Shown here: in pieces, positions 5,976 to 47,250 of the stretch
How the letters are laid out: each line of letters opens with the position of its first letter
Position numbering within the stretch: the first letter of the stretch is position 1
DNA from: Pirellulaceae bacterium
Lineage (GTDB): Bacteria; Planctomycetota; Planctomycetia; Pirellulales; Pirellulaceae
NCBI GenBank assembly: GCA_026004795.1
Contig: BPJV01000004.1
Location: forward strand, 186,001-250,000
Length of the DNA: 64,000 bases
Reading direction: 5' to 3'
Position numbers and translations under genes: made by a program
The notes under the pieces: model-generated
What the model was told of the DNA's origin: nothing
The model's input: the letters and a program-made list of their open reading frames with translations, nothing else
The model's database searches: none

Positions 5976-6467
5976 CCGTTGGTAACACCGCCCGCGTCGT
6001 TGGCCATGGCAACGTGGCGGACCGGGGCGCCCGTCCTAAGCGGCCGGGGGCGAAGCGTGGGACCTTGACTGCCATAGCCTCGCGATGGTCGCCTGAGCGC
6101 GTGACCATCGCGGGGCGAGGGGTGGTATACCTTCTTCCTAGGCGGCCCGCCTCGATGCACCAGCCGCTGGTGTGCGGCCGTCCCGATGGCGAATCTTCGT
6201 CCCCGGCAGTGGCCATTCCCGCGGCGGGAGGGGATGGGGCGACTGCGGAGAAGGCAGGAAAGGGCAAGCCGAACCGGCTCGATGGACGCTAGAACCGGAG
6301 TGTGGGCAGCGAGATTGCCGTTCCCGCGAAACTGCGGAGAAGCTGGCGAGCTCAGCACAGGCACCCTGGCAGGTGGCGAAGATTGGCTCTAGAATCTCGA
6401 CTCGGCCACCCCAAGGTCATTTACTCATAATTACCCCGGAGATTCTTGCCGTAGGAGGAAATCTACG

Positions 6468-6968
6468 ATGTTCAGTGATACCATTCGCCAGGCGCTGAAT
6501 GAGCAGATCAGCGTTGAATTCAATGCCGCCTATTCCTACCTGGGAATGGCCACATGGTGCGAACGGCAGGCCTTCAGCGGTGCAGCCAAGTGGTTGCGCA
6601 TGCAATACGAAGAGGAGATCGGTCATGGGATGAAGCTCTACAACTTTCTCCTCGCGCGTGACTGCGAGGTGGAGCTAGGGCAGATCGATAAACCGACGAT
6701 TCGCTTCGATTCGCTGCTCCATGTTTTTGCGACGGCGTTGGAGCAGGAGGTGGCGGTGAGCGAGCGGCTGGAGCGGTTGTATCAGCAAGCCTTTGAGGAG
6801 CGAGCCTATACCACGCTGGTGGAGCTCCAGTGGTTCCTGGCCGAACAGGTGGAGGAAGAGAAGACGATTCGAGAGATCGTCAAGAAATTGCAACTGGTCA
6901 AAGACGATCCTTCTGCCTTGCTGGAAATCGACCGTATGTTGGGTGAGCGTCCTAACGTCGCGCTGTAA
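6468..6968 (+). CDS. Ferritin
   Basis: ALNEQISVEFNAAYSYLGMATWCERQAFSGAAKWLRMQYEEEIGHGMKLYNFL ferroxidase-type helices; AGGAGG-like RBS upstream. Confidence 0.92.
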   Translation: MFSDTIRQALNEQISVEFNAAYSYLGMATWCERQAFSGAAKWLRMQYEEEIGHGMKLYNFLLARDCEVELGQIDKPTIRFDSLLHVFATALEQEVAVSERLERLYQQAFEERAYTTLVELQWFLAEQVEEEKTIREIVKKLQLVKDDPSALLEIDRMLGERPNVAL

Positions 6969-7008
6969 AGGGGCAACGGGGTGCCCGGGCTGCTTTGAGA
7001 GTACGGTT

Positions 7009-7024
7009 TGGCACGCTCGTTGCT
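7009..7024 (+). promoter_or_regulatory. Candidate sigma-54 (-24/-12) promoter TGGCACGCTCGTTGCT
   Basis: Exact match to TGGCACG-N4-TTGCW, intergenic, same orientation as the downstream ABC operon (first ATG at 7313). Confidence 0.6.
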
Positions 7025-7312
7025 TGAGAGCGACAAAGTTTCCGAACTCTGCGAAAATGGCAGTCGTAAAGGGGGTAAATCCCTGGCGGTTGTCAATTCG
7101 CCGTGGGCGCCCTTTTTCCCACCGTTGCTGCACCTGAAGATCGAGGGGGCTGCGTTCCACGTCGGCCCTGCCTGTCCTCGGCCACGACAATCTGAGCAGT
7201 CGTATACGGCCCCTCGCCGTTTTTTGGCACGTCAACGTGTGGATGAATTGTCGGTTCAGGGGCGGATTCCGAAGTGTCGTACCTGCATCATCGCAGACGT
7301 GAAGGAGTTGAA

Positions 7313-8047
7313 ATGACGGGAAATCACGACCGGCCGATGATCGAAGCCGAAGGATTGACGAAGTACTACGGCGAGTTCGTGGCGGTTGAAGACATTACCT
7401 TTTCGGTTCCTAAGGGGCAGGTGTGTGCTTTTTTGGGGCCCAATGGTGCTGGTAAGTCGACGACGATGAAGATGCTCTCCGGCTACTTGGCTCCTTCGGC
7501 CGGCGTAGCGCGGATTGGCGGCTTCGACATGCAGACGGAGCGTTTGGAGGGAGCCCGATTGTTGGGATACTTGCCGGAGAAGGGGCCCCTCTACACCGAC
7601 ATGACTCCCAAAGCGTTTCTCACCTACTGCGGACGAGTGCGGATGATGTCAGGCCGTCAGTTGCGCGATCGGCTGGATTATGTGTGCCGCATTTGTCATC
7701 TGGAGGATGTCTGGGGTAAAGCGATCGGGAAGTTGTCGCGGGGCTACCGCCAACGTGTCGGGATGGCTCAAGCGATCTTGCATGATCCCCAGGTGTTGAT
7801 CTTGGACGAGCCGACCAGTGGATTGGATCCCAATCAAGTTCAAGGTGTGCGTGAATTGATCCTGGAGTTGGGCAAGTCGAAAACCGTGCTGCTGAGCACG
7901 CACATCCTCCAGGAGGTGCATGCGGTGTGCAGTCGTGTTCTGCTGGTCAACCGAGGGCGGCTCATCTTCGATGGGCCTGTAACGGAACTGGGAGAGGACG
8001 GAGATACGATGGAGGTTCGGTTCCGCGAGCTGACCAATGCAGCCTAG
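7313..8047 (+). CDS. ABC transporter ATP-binding protein (GldA-like)
   Basis: Walker A GPNGAGKSTTMKML, signature LSRGYRQRVGMAQAI, Walker B VLILDEPTSGLDPNQ; RBS GAAGGAG before ATG 7313. Confidence 0.92.
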   Translation: MTGNHDRPMIEAEGLTKYYGEFVAVEDITFSVPKGQVCAFLGPNGAGKSTTMKMLSGYLAPSAGVARIGGFDMQTERLEGARLLGYLPEKGPLYTDMTPKAFLTYCGRVRMMSGRQLRDRLDYVCRICHLEDVWGKAIGKLSRGYRQRVGMAQAILHDPQVLILDEPTSGLDPNQVQGVRELILELGKSKTVLLSTHILQEVHAVCSRVLLVNRGRLIFDGPVTELGEDGDTMEVRFRELTNAA

Positions 8048-8176
8048 AATTGACGAAGGTTCGATCCCGCCGGTACTCCGCGGGTGAGCGATGGACGAAT
8101 TGCCTGTCGAGCCGCAAAGGCTCGGGAACGGGCGTTTGACGCGGAAGAAAACACACTTACGAGGTAGAGGGCAGTC

Positions 8177-10834
8177 ATGAAACTGCGATGGAGTGTCATC
8201 AAGGCCATTTTTCTTCGCAATCTGACGAGCTACTTTTCCGGGGTGCTCGGCTATCTGTTCATCATCTTGTTCGTCGTTGCCGCTGGCTTCTTCGCGTTCG
8301 ATGCTGATTTCTTCACGGCCAATGAACCGAACTTGGATCAGCTCTCGGAGTGGTATCCCGTGCTGCTGTTGTTCTTCATCCCGGCGATCACGATGAGCGT
8401 TTGGGCGGAAGAGAAGAAGATGGGGACCGACGAACTGTTGTTCACCTTGCCGGCGAGCGAGCTGGAAATCTTGATCGGGAAGTACCTGTCGGTGGTGGCC
8501 GTCTATACCGTCGCCCTGGTCTTCTCGATGACGCACATGTTTGTGTTGGCCTATTTGGGCAACCCCGATTGGGGGCTCATTCTGGCGACCTATTTCGGTT
8601 ACTGGTTGGCCGGTTGCGCGCTGCTCAGCGCCGGCATGTTGGCTTCGCAGTTTACCAGAAACATCACCGTCGCCTTCGTGGTGGGAGTGGTGATCTTGTT
8701 GATCCCGGTGAGCATTGGGCCCGTCAGCCAGTTGATCGGTTTGGGAGAGTTGCTGGAGCAGTTTAGCCTCGACGAGCAATTTCGCGATTTGAGTATGGGG
8801 GTGATACCCTTTGATGGGCTGCTCTACTTCGTATTCTTAACCGCGTTTATGCTCTATTTGAATTATGTGGTGATGACCCGCCGGCATTGGGCGGCCAAGC
8901 GGGAGGTTCATCCGGCTCTGCAGTTCACCGTTCGCGCGGTGGCGTTGGCAACGATCTTCGCGTGTGCCACGACCTGGGCCAGCTACAGTACCGTACGTAT
9001 CGACGCCACGCAGGAGAAGCAGTTCAGCCTTTCGACGACGACGCGAGAGGTACTGCGGAAGCTGGATCCGGAACGACCGATCGAGATCCAGGTGTTCATA
9101 AGCAAGGAAGTGCCGCCGGAGTATGTGGAGACGCGAAAGCGGTTGATCGGACTGTTGCGTCAGTATGACGAGCTGGCGGGTAAGAATCTGGAAGTGCGGT
9201 ACGTCGAGGTAGAGCCGTTCAGTCCTCAAGCCGAGGAAGCGGAGCATTTCGGCATTGAACCGGTTCAGGTGTTTTATATCGACCGAGACGGTCGCAGGGC
9301 CGAAGCCGAGATTTTTCTCGGGGCGGTGGTGATCAGCAGTTACGATAAGGTGGTCATCCCCTTTTTCGGTAAGGGCTTGCCGATCGAATACGAGCTGACA
9401 CGCTCAGTGCAGACGGTTGCTAATGAGACACGTCATCGCGTGGGAGTACTGCAAACCGATGCAGCGCTGGCCACTTCCGGCCGGCAATGGCAGATCGTCC
9501 GCGAGCTGAAAAAGCAGTACATCGTGGAAGAAGTCTCGCCGGCGACTGAAATCGACGGCTCGAAGTTCGATGTGCTCTTGGTAGGCATGCCGTCCAGTTT
9601 GACCGAGCCGGAGATGGATAATCTGGTTCAGTATGTCAAATCGGGCCGGCCGGTGGTTCTATTCGACGATCCATTCCCGCTGACTTTGGGTGGTCAATTC
9701 GGCGTCAGCAGTGCACCGCGACAACCGAAAACCAATCCGCATGCTGGTATGTTCGGGGGTAGTCCGCCGCCGGAGCCAAAGGCCGATGGGGGCCGGGCCA
9801 CCCGTTTGCTGGAGGCACTGGGCATTGAATGGCCCTACGACCAGGTGGTGTTCGACTTCAACAATCCGCACCCCGAATATGGAAACCTGCCTGCGGAGTA
9901 TGTCTTCATCACCAGCAGCACGAAACCGGAGGAAGATGGGTTCAATCGCCAATCGCCGATTACCCGCGGGCTGGAAGAGCTCATCGCTCTCTATCCTGGT
10001 TTCGTGCAGCAGCGCAGTTCCAGCGGCATCGAGTTTACTCCGCTGCTGCTGACCAGCTACCAATCGGGGGTGTTGAAGTGGGAAGAATTCGTCGATGAAA
10101 GCGGCTTCAACTTTTTTGCCATGTCCGCGGCGGCCAACCCCAAACGCAACCCACCACGACGGATCGATGCCAACCGCTACTGCTTGGCGGCCTATCTGCA
10201 TGGAGAGGAGGCGGATGCCAAGATCAACGCTGTATTCGTTACCGATATCGACATGATCTCCGATTTCTTCTTCGAAGAACGCACGATGGGCAATCTGAGC
10301 ATGAAATTCGATAACGTTACCTTCGTGCTCAATGCCATCGACTTCCTCGTGGGAGACGAAAGCTTCATCGAACTGCGAAGCCGCCGTGAGAAGCACCGTA
10401 CGCTCGATCGCGTCGAGCGAATGAAGAAGGTGTTTCTCGAGCAGGCTAACAAGGCGGAGCGGGAAGCCGATCGACAGGCAGAAGAGGAATTGGAGAAGCG
10501 ACGCGAGCAACTGCAGGCCCGCGTGAAAGAAATCCAGGAGAACCAACAGCTCGATCCGATCGCCAAGGCACAGTTGGTCGAACAAGCCCAGCAAGCCGAA
10601 CAACAAAGGCTGAGTCTGGCCGAAGCGCAGATCGAGCAGGAAAAGAACAATGAGATTCAGAAAATTCGGGCGACTACCAATCGTCAGGTCAAGCTGCTTG
10701 AGTGGCGTATCCGCCTGCTGTCGATCCTGTTGCCCGCCATTCCTGCGGTATTGGTGGGAGTGATTATGCTGGCCATCCGTTTGGCCGACGAACGACGAAG
10801 TGTGTCCCCTGATCGGCGACGTAAGGACTCATAG
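8177..10834 (+). CDS. ABC-2 permease fused to GldG-type auxiliary domain (GldFG)
   Basis: N-terminal multi-TM permease with SVWAEEKKMGTDELLFTLPASELEILIGKYLS; central GldG/ABC_transp_aux region (IQVFISKEVPPEY, VGMPSSLTEPEMDNLVQYVKSGRPVVLFDDPFP); C-terminal coiled coil and TM. Confidence 0.9.
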   Translation: MKLRWSVIKAIFLRNLTSYFSGVLGYLFIILFVVAAGFFAFDADFFTANEPNLDQLSEWYPVLLLFFIPAITMSVWAEEKKMGTDELLFTLPASELEILIGKYLSVVAVYTVALVFSMTHMFVLAYLGNPDWGLILATYFGYWLAGCALLSAGMLASQFTRNITVAFVVGVVILLIPVSIGPVSQLIGLGELLEQFSLDEQFRDLSMGVIPFDGLLYFVFLTAFMLYLNYVVMTRRHWAAKREVHPALQFTVRAVALATIFACATTWASYSTVRIDATQEKQFSLSTTTREVLRKLDPERPIEIQVFISKEVPPEYVETRKRLIGLLRQYDELAGKNLEVRYVEVEPFSPQAEEAEHFGIEPVQVFYIDRDGRRAEAEIFLGAVVISSYDKVVIPFFGKGLPIEYELTRSVQTVANETRHRVGVLQTDAALATSGRQWQIVRELKKQYIVEEVSPATEIDGSKFDVLLVGMPSSLTEPEMDNLVQYVKSGRPVVLFDDPFPLTLGGQFGVSSAPRQPKTNPHAGMFGGSPPPEPKADGGRATRLLEALGIEWPYDQVVFDFNNPHPEYGNLPAEYVFITSSTKPEEDGFNRQSPITRGLEELIALYPGFVQQRSSSGIEFTPLLLTSYQSGVLKWEEFVDESGFNFFAMSAAANPKRNPPRRIDANRYCLAAYLHGEEADAKINAVFVTDIDMISDFFFEERTMGNLSMKFDNVTFVLNAIDFLVGDESFIELRSRREKHRTLDRVERMKKVFLEQANKAEREADRQAEEELEKRREQLQARVKEIQENQQLDPIAKAQLVEQAQQAEQQRLSLAEAQIEQEKNNEIQKIRATTNRQVKLLEWRIRLLSILLPAIPAVLVGVIMLAIRLADERRSVSPDRRRKDS

Positions 10835-10958: not shown

Positions 10959-13256
10959 ATGTCGGTGATGAGCGATACAACCCAAGCGACTGAAGCGATG
11001 AAAGAACAAACGACTTCGCCGGAACGATCAACCAACGGGGAGGCCACGCGCCATGACCGGCAACTGCCGCCGGAAACCTTTCGGACGATCATCTACGCAG
11101 TGGTAGCGGTAGCCTGCATCGGAATCACTATCGCGGTCGAACTAATGACCCGCCCAGCAGAGATTGCCGAATACGGGAAGGTAGGGCAGGAATTCTATCC
11201 CGACTTTGTCGATCCGACCGAGGCGACCAGCCTCACTGTACGGACGATCGACAAAGATGCGGCGCGACCGGTTGAATTCAGCGTGCGCCGCAACGAGGAA
11301 GGGCAATGGGTGATCCCCAGCCACCACAATTATCCCGCTGATGCCGAAGAACGTCTGGCCAGGACGGCGGCCAGTGTAATCGGCATCAAACGTGGCGCCC
11401 TGGTCACTCGTTGGGCCAGCGATCATGCTCGCTTCGGCGTCGTCGATCCGGCACGCGATACCCTCAACGTCGATGAGCTGGAGGGAGTGGGCACACGCTT
11501 GGTTCTGCGAGGCAAAGACGATTCGGTATTGTTCGATCTGATTATCGGAAAAAAGGTCGAGGGGGAAGAAGGCGACGAGAATCAGTTCTATGTGCGTCAT
11601 CCAGATGAGGATGAAGTTTATATCGCGGCGCTGGATATCGATCTGTCGACACGGTTCCGTGATTGGATCGATACCGACTTGCTGGCGATCGACGCATTCG
11701 ATACGCGATTGCTCGAGATCCGTGATTATCAATTCGATGAATTGCGCGGCACCGTGACGCAAACGGAGATCTCGCGGCTGACTCGTACTTCATCGACGGA
11801 TCCGTGGAAGCTCGAAGGATTGGATGAAACCAAGTACGAGGTAGATCAGCAAAAGGTCCGCGAGACGGTCAATACGCTGGCCAATCTGGAAATCGTTGGA
11901 GTACGTCCAAAGTTGCCTGGGCTTACCGCTGATTTGCGGTTGGATCGCTCGGCGATCAAGTCGCAAGGCGACGTGGACCGCCTTCAATCCGACTTGCTGG
12001 CCCGTGGATTTCTGCTGCAACCTGGCAATGACGGTGACCCCAACTCGCTAAAGCTGTTGGCTCGTGAGGGGGAGATGACCGTCGCGACCGAGGATGCGGT
12101 GGCCTACGATTTGTATTTTGGTCGAGCATTCACCGGAACCGAGGAAGAGCTTGAGTTGGGATTCACGACAACCAAGGCTTCCTCCACGAAGGCAACAGCG
12201 GGCCAGCAAAGCGGGGCATCGGCGGCCGACCAAAAGGCCGACGCTGCCGACTCACAGGATAGAGATAGTGCTGGTGAATCTGGCTCGAATGAAGAGGACG
12301 ATCGCGAAAACGACGATGCTGGCCCACAGCCAGGTCAGTCCGACGAAGCCACCGATGAATCGGATGAACAATCCGAAGCTGAAAAGAAACCTGGTCGCTA
12401 TGTGTTCATTCGGGCTCGCATCGATACGTCCGTACTTGGGGCTGCCCCCGAGGAGCCGGTAGAACCTCAGATGCCGGAGGCATTAAAGAAGGCTGAGGAG
12501 GAAGCCAAGCAACAAGAGGCGGGGGCGGAGCAGGAATCGGACGATACGGCTGATGCCAACAGCGGCGACAGCGAAGTTGGCAATCCGTCGGCAGATGACT
12601 CCGATAGCAGTGACAGTGACAACGCTTCCGATGAGCAAAACGAGGAGCTGGAGAAACTGCGGCAGGAATACGAACAGGCCAAGTCGGCGTATGAAGAGGC
12701 CAAGCGCAAGTATGACGAGTACCATGACAAATTGAAGAAGGCCCAAGAAAAGGTCGATGAGCTCAATCGCAGGTTTGCCAAGTGGTACTATGTCATTCCT
12801 GGCGAAGACTACGAGAAGTTAACACTGCACCGCAGCGACTTGATCAAGGAGAAGTCGGCCGAGGAGGACAGCAGCAATGAGCAGAGCGGGGACAGCCTTT
12901 CGCTTCCTGAACTTCCCAGTGGGACCGGCTCGATGCCGGCCGATGCCGAGGCGGAATCCGCCGCTGCTGATTCTTCTCCCGCATCTGGAAGCAGCGGAGA
13001 AACCGCCGGTGGCGATGCTCCCGTAGAGGAGCCACCGGCACCTGAACCGCCACGACCAGCGGAAGTGTCCGACGAGCCGCCGGCTCCGACCACAGCGCCT
13101 GACGGTCCGTCGCCGTCCAAGGATCCCACCAACGATGGCCTTCCCGCCACGGAGGAACAGCCTCCGGCGCCGCAGGAGGCTGCTAGCGGGAGCGAATCAG
13201 CTGCGGCGGTCAACGAGAATGGCGGACGATCGGCGGGGCAGGCTGAGCCCGAATAA
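10959..13256 (+). CDS. DUF4340 domain-containing protein with long acidic disordered/coiled-coil C-terminal region
   Basis: TM RTIIYAVVAVACIGITIAVELM followed by DUF4340-like repeats, directly after gldFG; acidic E/D/S-rich tail with coiled coil EELEKLRQEYEQAKSAYEEAKRKYDEYHDKLKKAQEKVDELN. Confidence 0.8.
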   Translation: MSVMSDTTQATEAMKEQTTSPERSTNGEATRHDRQLPPETFRTIIYAVVAVACIGITIAVELMTRPAEIAEYGKVGQEFYPDFVDPTEATSLTVRTIDKDAARPVEFSVRRNEEGQWVIPSHHNYPADAEERLARTAASVIGIKRGALVTRWASDHARFGVVDPARDTLNVDELEGVGTRLVLRGKDDSVLFDLIIGKKVEGEEGDENQFYVRHPDEDEVYIAALDIDLSTRFRDWIDTDLLAIDAFDTRLLEIRDYQFDELRGTVTQTEISRLTRTSSTDPWKLEGLDETKYEVDQQKVRETVNTLANLEIVGVRPKLPGLTADLRLDRSAIKSQGDVDRLQSDLLARGFLLQPGNDGDPNSLKLLAREGEMTVATEDAVAYDLYFGRAFTGTEEELELGFTTTKASSTKATAGQQSGASAADQKADAADSQDRDSAGESGSNEEDDRENDDAGPQPGQSDEATDESDEQSEAEKKPGRYVFIRARIDTSVLGAAPEEPVEPQMPEALKKAEEEAKQQEAGAEQESDDTADANSGDSEVGNPSADDSDSSDSDNASDEQNEELEKLRQEYEQAKSAYEEAKRKYDEYHDKLKKAQEKVDELNRRFAKWYYVIPGEDYEKLTLHRSDLIKEKSAEEDSSNEQSGDSLSLPELPSGTGSMPADAEAESAAADSSPASGSSGETAGGDAPVEEPPAPEPPRPAEVSDEPPAPTTAPDGPSPSKDPTNDGLPATEEQPPAPQEAASGSESAAAVNENGGRSAGQAEPE

Positions 13257-41756: not shown

Positions 41757-41772
41757 TGGCACATTTTTTGCA
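41757..41772 (+). promoter_or_regulatory. Candidate sigma-54 (-24/-12) promoter TGGCACATTTTTTGCA
   Basis: Matches TGGCAYR-N4-TTGCW with correct spacing; intergenic between divergent htrA and groES. Confidence 0.5.
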
Positions 41773-42015: not shown

Positions 42016-42336
42016 ATGGCAACTGCTACAGCAACGAAGAAGACCATCAAGCTCCGTCCGCTTTCCGATCGCGTGGTAATCGAGCGAGATGAAGCGGAAG
42101 AAAAGACGGCCGGAGGGATCGTGCTTCCCGATACGGCAAAGGAGAAGGTCAATCGGGGGCGAGTCGTGGCAGTAGGGCCGGGCAAGTTGACCGATGACGG
42201 CAAGCGCGTGGAGCCGTCGGTCAAGCCTGGAGATCACGTGCTGATCAATAAGTATGGCGGCGATGAGTTCGAATTCGATGGGGGCAAGTACGTCATCGTC
42301 CGCGAAAGCGACATTTTGGCAGTGATCGACGAATGA
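42016..42336 (+). CDS. groES: Co-chaperonin GroES
   Basis: IKLRPLSDRVVIERDEAEEKTAGGIVLPDTAKEKVNRGRVVAVGPG...VLINKYGGDEFEFDGGKYVIVRESDILAVI; AGGAGG RBS before ATG 42016. Confidence 0.97.
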   Translation: MATATATKKTIKLRPLSDRVVIERDEAEEKTAGGIVLPDTAKEKVNRGRVVAVGPGKLTDDGKRVEPSVKPGDHVLINKYGGDEFEFDGGKYVIVRESDILAVIDE

Positions 42337-42408
42337 CGTCCTGGCGGCGCCTGATGCCACGTGTTTTGTTGTGTCCATTGATGGTTGCGTTTGAGGAGGT
42401 TCAATTTT

Positions 42409-44034
42409 ATGTCAGCAAAGATTATCGCTTTTGAACAAGAAGCACGTGAAGCGATTAAGCGGGGAGTTGGAAAGCTGGCCAAGACCGTGCGCAGCACCTT
42501 GGGGCCCGGAGGGCACAACGTCATCCTGCAGAAAAGTTTTGGGGCACCCGTCGTAACTCGTGACGGAGTGACCGTTGCCAAGGAGATCGAGTTAGAGGAT
42601 CCTTACGAAAACATGGGCGCACGTATGGTGCGCGAGGTTGCTTCCAAGACCAATGACGTTGCCGGTGACGGGACAACCACGGCTACCGTGTTGGCGGAAG
42701 CGATTTTCAACGAGGGATTGCGTGCGGTGGTGGCAGGGACCAACCCGATCCATCTGAAACGGGGAATCGAGCAGGCGGTCGATGATGTGGTGGCCAACCT
42801 GAAGTCCCTTTCGACCAAGGTTAAGGGACGGGACGACATGGAGCATGTCGCCCGCATCTCCGGCAACCAAGATCCCCAAGTGGGCAAGATCGTCGCCGAT
42901 GCTGTGGAGCGAGTAGGTAAAGATGGGGTGGTGACGATCGAGGAAGGCAAAGGCCTGGAGACTGAGGTCGAGTGGGTCGAAGGGATGCAGTTTGACAAGG
43001 GGTATTTGTCTCCCTACTTCGTCACCGATCCGCAGACGATGGAGTGCGTGCTGGAAGAGCCGTACATCTTGATCCATGAAAAGAAGCTCTCCAACATTCG
43101 CGACCTGGTTCCCTTGCTGGAAAAAATCGCCAAGACCGGCAAACCGTTGTTGATCATCGCCGAGGATGTTGAAGGAGATGCCTTGGCGACGTTGGTGGTC
43201 AACCGACTGCGTGGCACGTTCACCGCGTGTGCCGTCAAAGCACCCGGCTTTGGTGATCGTCGCAAAGCGATGTTGGAGGACATCGCTATTCTCACCGGCG
43301 GTAAGGCGTTGTTTGAGAGCTTGGGGATCAAGCTGGAGAATGTTGAACTGACCGATCTGGGACGCGCTAAGAAGGTGGTGGTGACCAAGGACACGACAAC
43401 CATCATCGAGGGGGCTGGTAAGACCTCGGACATCAAAGCGCGCATCGCGCAGATCGAGCACGAGTACGAGAAGTCGACCAGCGACTACGATCGCGAGAAG
43501 CTGCAAGAGCGGAAAGCGAAGCTTGCCGGTGGCGTTGCCAAGATCAGCGTCGGAGGGGCCACCGAAGCGGAGGTGAAAGAGAAGAAGATGCGGTATGAAG
43601 ACGCGTTGAGCGCTACTCGGGCGGCCGTGGAAGAAGGCATTGTCCCCGGCGGTGGAGTCGCGCTGGTGCGGGCGGCTGCCAAGGCCAATCGCGAGGGACT
43701 GAGCGATGATGAACGCGCCGGGTACAACATTGTCTTGCGGGCGTGCCGCGCGCCTCTGACTTGGATCGCGGAAAATGCAGGACAAGATGGGTCGCTGGTG
43801 TGCGAAAAAGTGATGGAAGGGACCGGAAACTTCGGTTTCAATGCAGCAACTGGCGTGTTTGAAGATTTGGTCAAGGCCGGCGTTATTGACCCGACCAAGG
43901 TTGTTCGCACGGCTTTGGAAAATGCCGCCAGCGTGGCCACGCTGTTGCTGACCAGCGATGCATTGATCGCGGAAAAGCCGAAGAACGAGACGGCGAAGAA
44001 GTCCGCCGGTGGCGGTGACTACGACATGTATTGA
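42409..44034 (+). CDS. groEL: Chaperonin GroEL
   Basis: [79 protein letters not shown]. Confidence 0.97.
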
Positions 44035-44076: not shown

Positions 44077-44119
44077 ACGCCAAGTTGTCGGCCTGCTCCA
44101 CAGTCGGACAACTTGGCGT
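44077..44119 (+). terminator. 13-bp inverted repeat after groEL, probable terminator/attenuator
   Basis: ACGCCAAGTTGTC ... GACAACTTGGCGT perfect inverted repeat followed by TTCCTTT (weak U-tract). Confidence 0.55.
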
Positions 44120-44391
44120 TTCCTTTGCGCCGAGTCGGACGATTGGCATGCGGCATGCTGTGCTCTGCCGTCGTCCCACCGCGAAGCGCCTCAACGAGCC
44201 AGCAGGCCGTTCCCGAGGCACCTTCAAGGCAGCACGGTTGCCGGTAGGCGCCGGTCTCCGGTGCTGCGGAGGTTCCAGGGGCTCGCGGCCGGCTCGCATG
44301 CGGCGGCTGATGCGTTGGTGGACATGATTGGGGATGATTTGGCAGAACAGGGTGGTGCTCACTGCGAGCACCCACGAAGACGGGGTTCCCT

Positions 44392-44724
44392 ATGTTTGAC
44401 GACGTGACCTTTCCCAAGCCCGCCCGGGGAAGCTGCTGGGTTCCTGCAGCCGACGTCTACCGCACGCCCAGTGGATGGCTGGTCAAGTTCGATTTGGCCG
44501 GTGTGAACCCGTCGGACTTGGAATTGCAGCGCCACGGCCATCGTCTGTGTATTCGGGGGACGCGGCGCGATGTCTTGGTGCAAACAGGGGTGCAATCCTA
44601 CTCGTTGGAAATCAGTTACAACCGATTCGAACGAACCGTGCACTTTCCCACGGAGATCGAGTCAGCGCATGTCTCCACGGAATATCGCGACGGCATGCTG
44701 CTGGTGAGGTTGGAACAGGTATAG
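44392..44724 (+). CDS. Hsp20/alpha-crystallin family small heat shock protein
   Basis: PAADVYRTPSGWLVKFDLAGVNPSDLELQRHGHRLCIRGTRR...FERTVHFPTEIESAHVSTEYRDGMLLVRLEQV. Confidence 0.9.
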   Translation: MFDDVTFPKPARGSCWVPAADVYRTPSGWLVKFDLAGVNPSDLELQRHGHRLCIRGTRRDVLVQTGVQSYSLEISYNRFERTVHFPTEIESAHVSTEYRDGMLLVRLEQV

Positions 44725-44766: not shown

Positions 44767-47250
44767 ATGATGGACAAGGAAAATACCCGCGGCAGCGACG
44801 AAACGGCTCCAGAACTGAAGCGTGCACGAGGAGACGCGACGACCGATCCTGAGCGATCGGACAGTGAAAGAGGTGGTAATCAGCATGGTGGTCCGGAAAA
44901 GACCCCGGTGGCTATCGGGGTGCTTCCCGTACTGCCGTTGCGCAATAGTGTGCTTTTCCCTTCGATGATGATGCCGTTGGCGGCAAGTCGTGAAGCCTCG
45001 GTGGCGGCCATCGAGGCGGCCATGGCGAGCGAAGATAAGACGTTGATTGTCGCCACGCAGCTGGATCCAGCCGTGGAGGAACCGCAGCAGGCGGACTTGT
45101 TCGAGTATGCCACGATCGGCGTGATCAAGAAAGCCGAACGGAGCAACGAAGGGATTTCGCTGATCGCCCAGGGCATTGAGCGGGTACGCATTCTCAAGGT
45201 AGAGATGCGCGATGGCTATCTGCAGGCGCACTTCGAAGTAGTTCCCGTATGCTGCGAGAAAACGGAAGCGGTAGAGGCACTCCGCCGCAATGTCGTCGAG
45301 TTGGCAACGAAGATCGCTGAGCATTTGAAGGGGAATGCGCCGGCGGCCGTCGGACAGATTTTGGCCCAGGTCACCGAGCCGCTGGAATTGGCCTATCTGT
45401 TGGCCTCGTTGATGGGATTGAGCATCGAGCGTGATCGCGCGCTGCTGGCAGCCAATACGTGTGAGGAAGTGCTCAAGCTGCTGGTGGAGTATCTCTCCTA
45501 CGAGCTCAAAGTGCGCGAGCTGCAAATGGAGATCGCCTCGACTGCTCAATCGGAAATGAACCGGGAGCAACGCGAGTATCTGCTGCGGCGCCAACTTGAG
45601 GCCATCCGCCGGGAACTGGGGGAAGAAGGGGCGGAGCAAGCGGATCTGGAAGAGCTGCGCCAGCGGTTCGAAGAGACGCAGTTGCCGGAGGAGGTGGCCG
45701 CTGAGGTGGAAAAGGAACTCCAGCGGCTCGAACGTATGTCACCCAATGCGGCCGAGTACCAACTGACGCGTACCTACGTCGACTTGTTATTGGAGCTGCC
45801 TTGGGACAAGACGACCGACGACAACCTCGATCTGCACCACGCGCGCGCCGTCCTCGACGAAGATCATTTCGATCTCGATTCGATCAAGGATCGAATCATC
45901 GAGCATTTGGCGGTGATGAAGCTCAATCCCAACGCCAAGGCGCCAATCCTGTGCTTCGTAGGGCCACCCGGTGTGGGCAAGACCTCCCTCGGAAAATCGA
46001 TTGCCAAGGCCTTGGGACGTAAGTTCGAGCGATTGGCGTTGGGGGGGCTTCACGACGAGGCCGAACTGCGCGGGCACCGACGAACCTATATCGGCGCCAT
46101 GCCCGGGCGCATCATCCAAGCGATTCGCCGTGCCGGAACGAAGAATCCAGTGATCATGCTCGATGAGATCGACAAACTGGGGCGCGATTATCGCGGCGAT
46201 CCCGCGGCCGCACTCATGGAGATCCTGGATCCGGAACAGAACCGAGAGTTTCACGATAACTACCTTGACCTTCCGTTCGATCTGTCCAAGGTCTTCTTCA
46301 TCACTACCGCCAACACGCTGGATACGATCCCCGCGCCGCTGTTGGATCGGATGGAGGTGCTGCAACTGTCCGGATACAGCAGCGAGGAAAAGGAGAAGAT
46401 TGCCCGCCGTTACTTGATTCCTCGTCAACTGGCGGAAGCCGGGGTTTCTCCTGAGCAGTTGGTGATCAGCGATGAAGCGCTGCGCTACGTTATCCGCGGT
46501 TATACGCGTGAAGCCGGTGTGCGCAATCTCGAACGCATGCTCGGACGCATCGTGCGCAAGGTGGCTAGACGCATCGTCGAGGGAGAAACTGGTCCCATTA
46601 CCATCACGCCCGACGATTTGACCGACATTTTGGGGCCGGAACGGTTCACTCCCGAAAAGGCTCGCCAGCACTTACGCCCCGGTGTGGCCGCAGGTTTGGC
46701 GTGGACTCCCACCGGTGGTGACGTGTTGTATGTGGAAGCCGTCGAGGTTGGGCGCGGCGGAAAACTGACCCTTACCGGGCATCTGGGAAAGGTGATGAAG
46801 GAATCGGCTCGTGCCGCGCTCAGTTATCTAATCTCCATGGCTCCGCAGCTCGGGTTAGAAAAAGAACATTTGATGCGGGCCAGTGTGCATATCCACGTGC
46901 CGGCTGGGGCCGTTCCCAAGGACGGTCCTTCCGCCGGAGTAACCATGGCGACAGCCTTGGCTTCCCTGTTCGCTCACGCACCGGCCCGCGCCGATACGGC
47001 GATGACCGGCGAAATCACTTTAAGCGGTTTAGTGTTGCCGGTCGGCGGCATCAAGGAAAAGGTGTTGGCCGCCCATCGCGCGGGAATCCGACGCGTGATT
47101 CTACCGCAAGCCAATGAAAAGGATTTGACGGAGTTGCCTGAGGAGGTGCGACAGGACATGGAGTTCCTGTTTGCTGAGCGGATTGAGGATGCCTTGGCGG
47201 CTGCGATTCCCGAAATGGCCGATCGGAAGCCGCCCATCTCGCTGGTGTGA
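44767..47250 (+). CDS. lon: ATP-dependent protease Lon
   Basis: [61 protein letters not shown] catalytic Ser, [15 protein letters not shown] catalytic Lys. Confidence 0.97.

Follow-up and report, generated by a model that had tools for sequence, protein, structure and literature searches.

A conserved sigma-54 promoter element heads a Gld-type ABC operon in Pirellulaceae and suggests its membership of a chaperone-associated stress regulon

The 64-kb window analysed here (G000:C4:186001-250000, from a Pirellulaceae genome of 5.59 Mb) carries on its forward strand a three-gene operon encoding a GldA-like ABC ATPase (7313-8047; PF00005), a GldFG-like protein in which ABC-2 permease and ABC_transp_aux domains are fused (8177-10834; PF12679, PF09822 and PF23357) and a DUF4340 protein (10968-13256; PF14238). 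ABC ATPase, ABC-2 permease and GldG-like domain (PF00005, PF12679 and PF09822), the content of a Gld-type ABC system, are present together, and Pfam confirms the GldA-GldFG-DUF4340 composition proposed in a first-pass annotation of the sequence, with the GldFG-like permease as a fusion. A search by sequence found no relatives of this permease in the PDB, and its named relatives are from Pirellulaceae planctomycetes, for example Rhodopirellula. The operon is preceded by a ferritin gene on the same strand (6468-6968; PF00210, E 7.5e-35), a gene order also found in the sister species (L063). Between ferritin gene and operon lies TGGCACGCTCGTTGCT (7009-7024, forward strand), a sigma-54 -24/-12 promoter element of the form TGGCACG-CTCG-TTGCT, which matches TGGCACG-N4-TTGCW exactly and in which the GG-N10-GC core is present and exact in its TGGCAC/TTGCW context. 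The element begins 40 nt downstream of the ferritin stop codon (6966-6968), and the ATG of the ATPase at 7313 lies 288 nt beyond its last base, confirming the exact, correctly oriented consensus that the annotation had reported. Standard sigma-54 geometry would place the start of transcription about 12 nt past the GC of the -12 element, at 7035-7036 on the forward strand.

This is the sole exact match in the 64-kb window, for which we estimate an expectation of about 0.015, and matches with up to one mismatch to TGGCACGN4TTGCW number two in the window against 0.94 expected from shuffled windows. The element is also the top-scoring site of the window on a weight matrix, at 23.5 bits with a runner-up at 14.2, a score that is partly circular because the matrix was trained on related sites including this one, whereas the exact-consensus counts are not circular. 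Exact motifs occur at 10 sites in the genome against 2 for a reversed-pattern control, and at 145 against 71 sites in 30 related genomes (binomial p ~3e-7). Promoter-like placement was defined as an intergenic position no more than 500 nt before a correctly oriented gene, with approximate gene calls from our own simple codon-based caller, and was compared with a background of 9-12% taken from the fetched regions, which are a non-random sample of the genomes. By this definition 9 of the 10 exact sites in the genome are placed as promoters (background 0.088, p 3e-9), as are 8 of 9 in the sister species (p 2e-7) and 10 of 11 in g67, a third genus (p 2e-9); the remaining site in the genome itself lies inside guaA and is probably due to chance. 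Pfam confirms Hsp20, a GroEL and Memo among the targets, which further comprise ClpB, thioredoxin and a metallophosphatase, these three named from sequence alone; Hsp20, GroEL, Memo and the predicted metallophosphatase recur as targets across genera.

Conservation of the element was examined at the orthologous operons of 30 genomes of the family, defined by a permease match of E <= 1e-220. With up to one mismatch and in the same orientation it heads the operon in 13 genomes from 6 genera, in agreement with the conservation that the annotation had put forward as a check. In 11 of these genomes it lies 59-305 nt before the ATPase gene (two genomes of g1, the genus of the window, six of g36, two of g14 and one of g45), and in g64 and g67 it leads a longer unit, ahead of one or two small genes that precede the ATPase. 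The DNA flanking the element has diverged to the point that the intergenic region cannot be aligned between the window and the sister species. In the permease tree the window falls in a clade of 11 rows (support 82/87), every one of which has the site, and g64 and g67 pair apart from it with full support; these genomes share kinship, and as such are not independent observations. The orthologous operons of five genera (g46, g3, g31, g65 and g18) are without the element, two g46 loci that end at a contig edge having been left out of the scoring. Among the 30 searched genomes with an orthologous operon, rpoN was detected in 29, the exception being an assembly that is 74% complete, so that its loss is rejected as the cause of these absences. 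Orthologs in five genera thus lack the site although rpoN is present, which means that the system can do without sigma-54 control. No match at up to two mismatches was found at any of 30 paralogous Gld-type operons of the same family, and the Gld-type paralog in the genome itself has no sigma-54 site.

The genome encodes one intact RpoN of 507 aa (E 4.3e-62) with the RpoN box ARRTITKYRK, so that the presence of rpoN, on which the annotation had staked its proposal, is established, and it encodes 12 strong enhancer-binding proteins (EBPs; PF00158). Near the operon, g36, g64 and g67 encode a response regulator of NtrC type, about 450 aa long, with a receiver, a sigma-54 interaction domain and a Fis-type HTH. 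Palindromes close to CGACA-N3-TGTCG are found in relatives 47-131 nt upstream of the promoter, often paired 20-33 nt apart, and this putative enhancer stands out upstream of the orthologous operons of several genera and also before the Hsp20 and groEL sites of the genome itself. The DNA-binding domain of the regulator (E <= 1e-9) was detected in 12 of the 13 genomes with the site as against 1 of the 15 scored genomes without it, a co-occurrence that is suggestive but not independent, the genomes being related; the sister genome, an assembly that is 84% complete, gave no match to this domain. Its closest counterpart in the genome under study is a 611-aa EBP (L127:7543-9375) that is not linked to the operon; over 50 residues, its last HTH shares 74% identity with the HTH of the g36 regulator. 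This protein is longer than the regulators encoded beside the operon in relatives, and the matching HTH lies at its far C-terminus. Its gene is divergent to that of a hybrid histidine kinase with PAS, HisKA and two receiver domains (together L127:3876-9375), and a sigma-54-like site and enhancer-like palindromes precede the kinase gene.

At the window promoter itself, the enhancer is matched weakly at best, at 6929 and 7031, with no conservation in the sister species, and no significant enhancer element was found at either promoter. The first of the two, CGACCGTATGTTG (6929-6941), is a candidate with two mismatches to CGACA-N3-TGTCG in the 3' end of the ferritin gene (shuffle P 0.11, not significant); it lies 80 nt upstream of the promoter, a distance equal to that in Rhodopirellula-like relatives. 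The search for upstream EBP sites that the annotation had recommended was productive in several relatives, weak in the window and without result in the sister species. A scan of the genome for the palindrome alone gave 50 sites against 17 for the control, and the two of these places that were examined have no properly placed sigma-54 site nearby, which indicates that the palindrome alone is not diagnostic.

Two chaperone loci of the same window have sigma-54-like sites on the forward strand. The groES and groEL genes (42016-44034, groES from 42016 and groEL from 42409), identified from translated sequence and the gene caller, are preceded at 259 nt before groES by TGGCACATTTTTTGCA (41757-41772), which has one mismatch to the consensus. 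Beyond them an intergenic site, TGGCATGCGGCATGCT (44144-44159, matrix score 14.2), lies 248 nt before a gene for Hsp20 (44392-44724; PF00011), which is followed by one for Lon protease (44767-47250; PF05362 and PF02190). Upstream of this site is a paired putative enhancer (44078-44118) composed of CGCCAAGTTGTCG (44078-44090) and GGACAACTTGGCG (44106-44118), which is among the top enhancer-matrix scores in the window. Hsp20 or groESL also adjoins the ABC operon itself in most loci of g36, g64, g14 and g45. Promoter type and chaperone neighbours are held in common, and on these grounds the operon appears to be included in a planctomycete sigma-54 stress regulon.

Such a regulon has been predicted in part before. 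An in silico study of the sigma-54 regulon of Planctomycetia from 2025 (PMC12316311) reports that the predicted sigma-54 targets of Planctomycetota are enriched in GroEL, GroES, IbpA/Hsp20, DnaK/J, GrpE, ATP-dependent proteases and NtrC-type regulators (COG2204). The overlap with our targets is strong, and a search of its main text gave no mention of gliding, ferritin or the ABC/GldG COGs looked for. The annotation had called sigma-54 control unexpected for this type of system; the ABC operon appears to be a new member of the regulon, but its regulation is less isolated than that wording implies and fits a broad planctomycete sigma-54 chaperone and stress regulon (PMC12316311). According to the relevant passages of a stress transcriptome study of Rhodopirellula baltica (PMC2754498, 2009), which refers to sigma-54 promoters predicted earlier for this species, heat induces Hsp20, GroEL, Cpn10 and ClpB, and rpoN is not heat-regulated and is down-regulated by salt; these passages do not deal with the ABC operon. 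Conservation at the level of the operon, the adjacent regulator and the enhancer were not found described in the portions of this literature considered.

The motif, rpoN, the conservation, the gene context and the co-occurrence of the EBP domain can be read in the sequences; promoter activity, the identity of the EBP, the function of the enhancer and the nature of the signal as stress are what we infer. It is in our judgement very likely that the element at 7009-7024 functions as a sigma-54 promoter of the ABC operon, is activated by an NtrC-family protein and belongs to a stress regulon. RNA polymerase carrying RpoN would bind 7009-7024 and remain closed until an NtrC-family response regulator at an upstream element opened it, and transcription would then start near 7035 and continue through the genes for ABC ATPase, GldFG-like permease and DUF4340 protein. 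In relatives, the regulator with the distinctive Fis-type domain probably binds the paired CGACA-N3-TGTCG palindromes, and in this genome the likely activator is the 611-aa EBP at L127:7543-9375, acting with the divergent hybrid histidine kinase. The operon would thereby be part of a stress and protein-quality regulon with Hsp20, GroEL and others. This is in keeping with the activation by RpoN and an EBP that the annotation had proposed, in that EBPs are at hand and both activator and enhancer find support in relatives, although the enhancer at the window is weak.

That the motif is a chance occurrence, with the operon transcribed instead from a sigma-70 or ECF promoter that escaped detection or by transcription running on from the ferritin gene, seems to us very improbable. 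Large genomes do produce such matches, as the two genome-wide sites of the reversed control and the probable chance site in guaA illustrate, but neither the promoter-like placement of nine of the ten sites in the genome nor the recurrence of the element in 13 genomes of 6 genera, in contrast to none of the 30 paralogs, would be expected from chance. A scan of 6400-8300 for promoters of sigma-70 type found none. Scarcely more probable is a promoter that yields a small RNA or short leader transcript ending at 7206-7226, where a small hairpin, ACGGC-CCCTC-GCCGT, is followed by a T-run within the leader. This hairpin is terminator-like, but its stem is only 5 bp, the region contains 4 such sites where 1.8 are expected, close to the chance level, and the sister leader shows no apparent counterpart. 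At about 278 nt, the leader before the ATPase exceeds those of Rhodopirellula-like relatives in length, and the annotation had suggested that it might hold additional control. This suggestion is unsupported: the leader has no match in Rfam, folds no better than shuffled sequences (z-score 0.33) and is not conserved in the sister species. The Rfam result and the shuffle-level folding also count against a small RNA, and on them a riboswitch or otherwise structured leader was rejected.

A far stronger competitor, whose probability we place somewhat below even, keeps a genuine sigma-54 promoter driving the operon but assigns activation of this promoter to another EBP, bound in the 3' end of the ferritin gene or elsewhere. 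The genome encodes 11 further strong EBPs, the proposed enhancer is weak at the window and absent in the sister species, and the domain of the proposed EBP was not found in the sister assembly. Against this stand the co-occurrence of that DNA-binding domain with the site across genera and the clear enhancer at the orthologous operon in several genera and at the Hsp20 and groEL sites of the genome itself, which favour the regulator with the Fis-type domain as activator.

To our knowledge, Gld-type ABC/DUF4340 operons are common, and a function has been assigned to them only in gliding Bacteroidota. The GldA-GldFG system of those bacteria has domain types in common with the present operon (ABC ATPase, ABC-2 permease and GldG-like ABC_transp_aux), from which the latter differs in the fusion of the permease and GldG-like parts, the addition of DUF4340 and the predicted sigma-54 control. 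The candidate regulator resembles NtrC-family two-component sigma-54 systems in its receiver, sigma-54 interaction domain, Fis-type HTH and paired upstream palindromes. A conserved stress-type sigma-54 promoter with a linked activator offers a first concrete lead to when the operon is needed, and a testable pair of regulator and enhancer for the stress response of planctomycetes, about whose regulators little is known. We would tentatively suggest that the GldFG/DUF4340 ABC complex could be a dedicated effector of envelope or protein-quality stress in Pirellulaceae, deployed with Hsp20 and GroEL under its own two-component sigma-54 system, which would consist of the regulator with the distinctive Fis-type HTH and the paired CGACA-N3-TGTCG enhancer.

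Two minor observations concern the surroundings of the operon in relatives. In g67 (L135:3905-4723), the first genes of the operon unit behind the sigma-54 site are a small one to which Pfam gives no match and csrA. A sigma-54-like site, TGGTACGACGGTTGCA, is also present in g14 upstream of a glycosyltransferase-like gene in the vicinity of the operon (L042:7144 and L060:3703).
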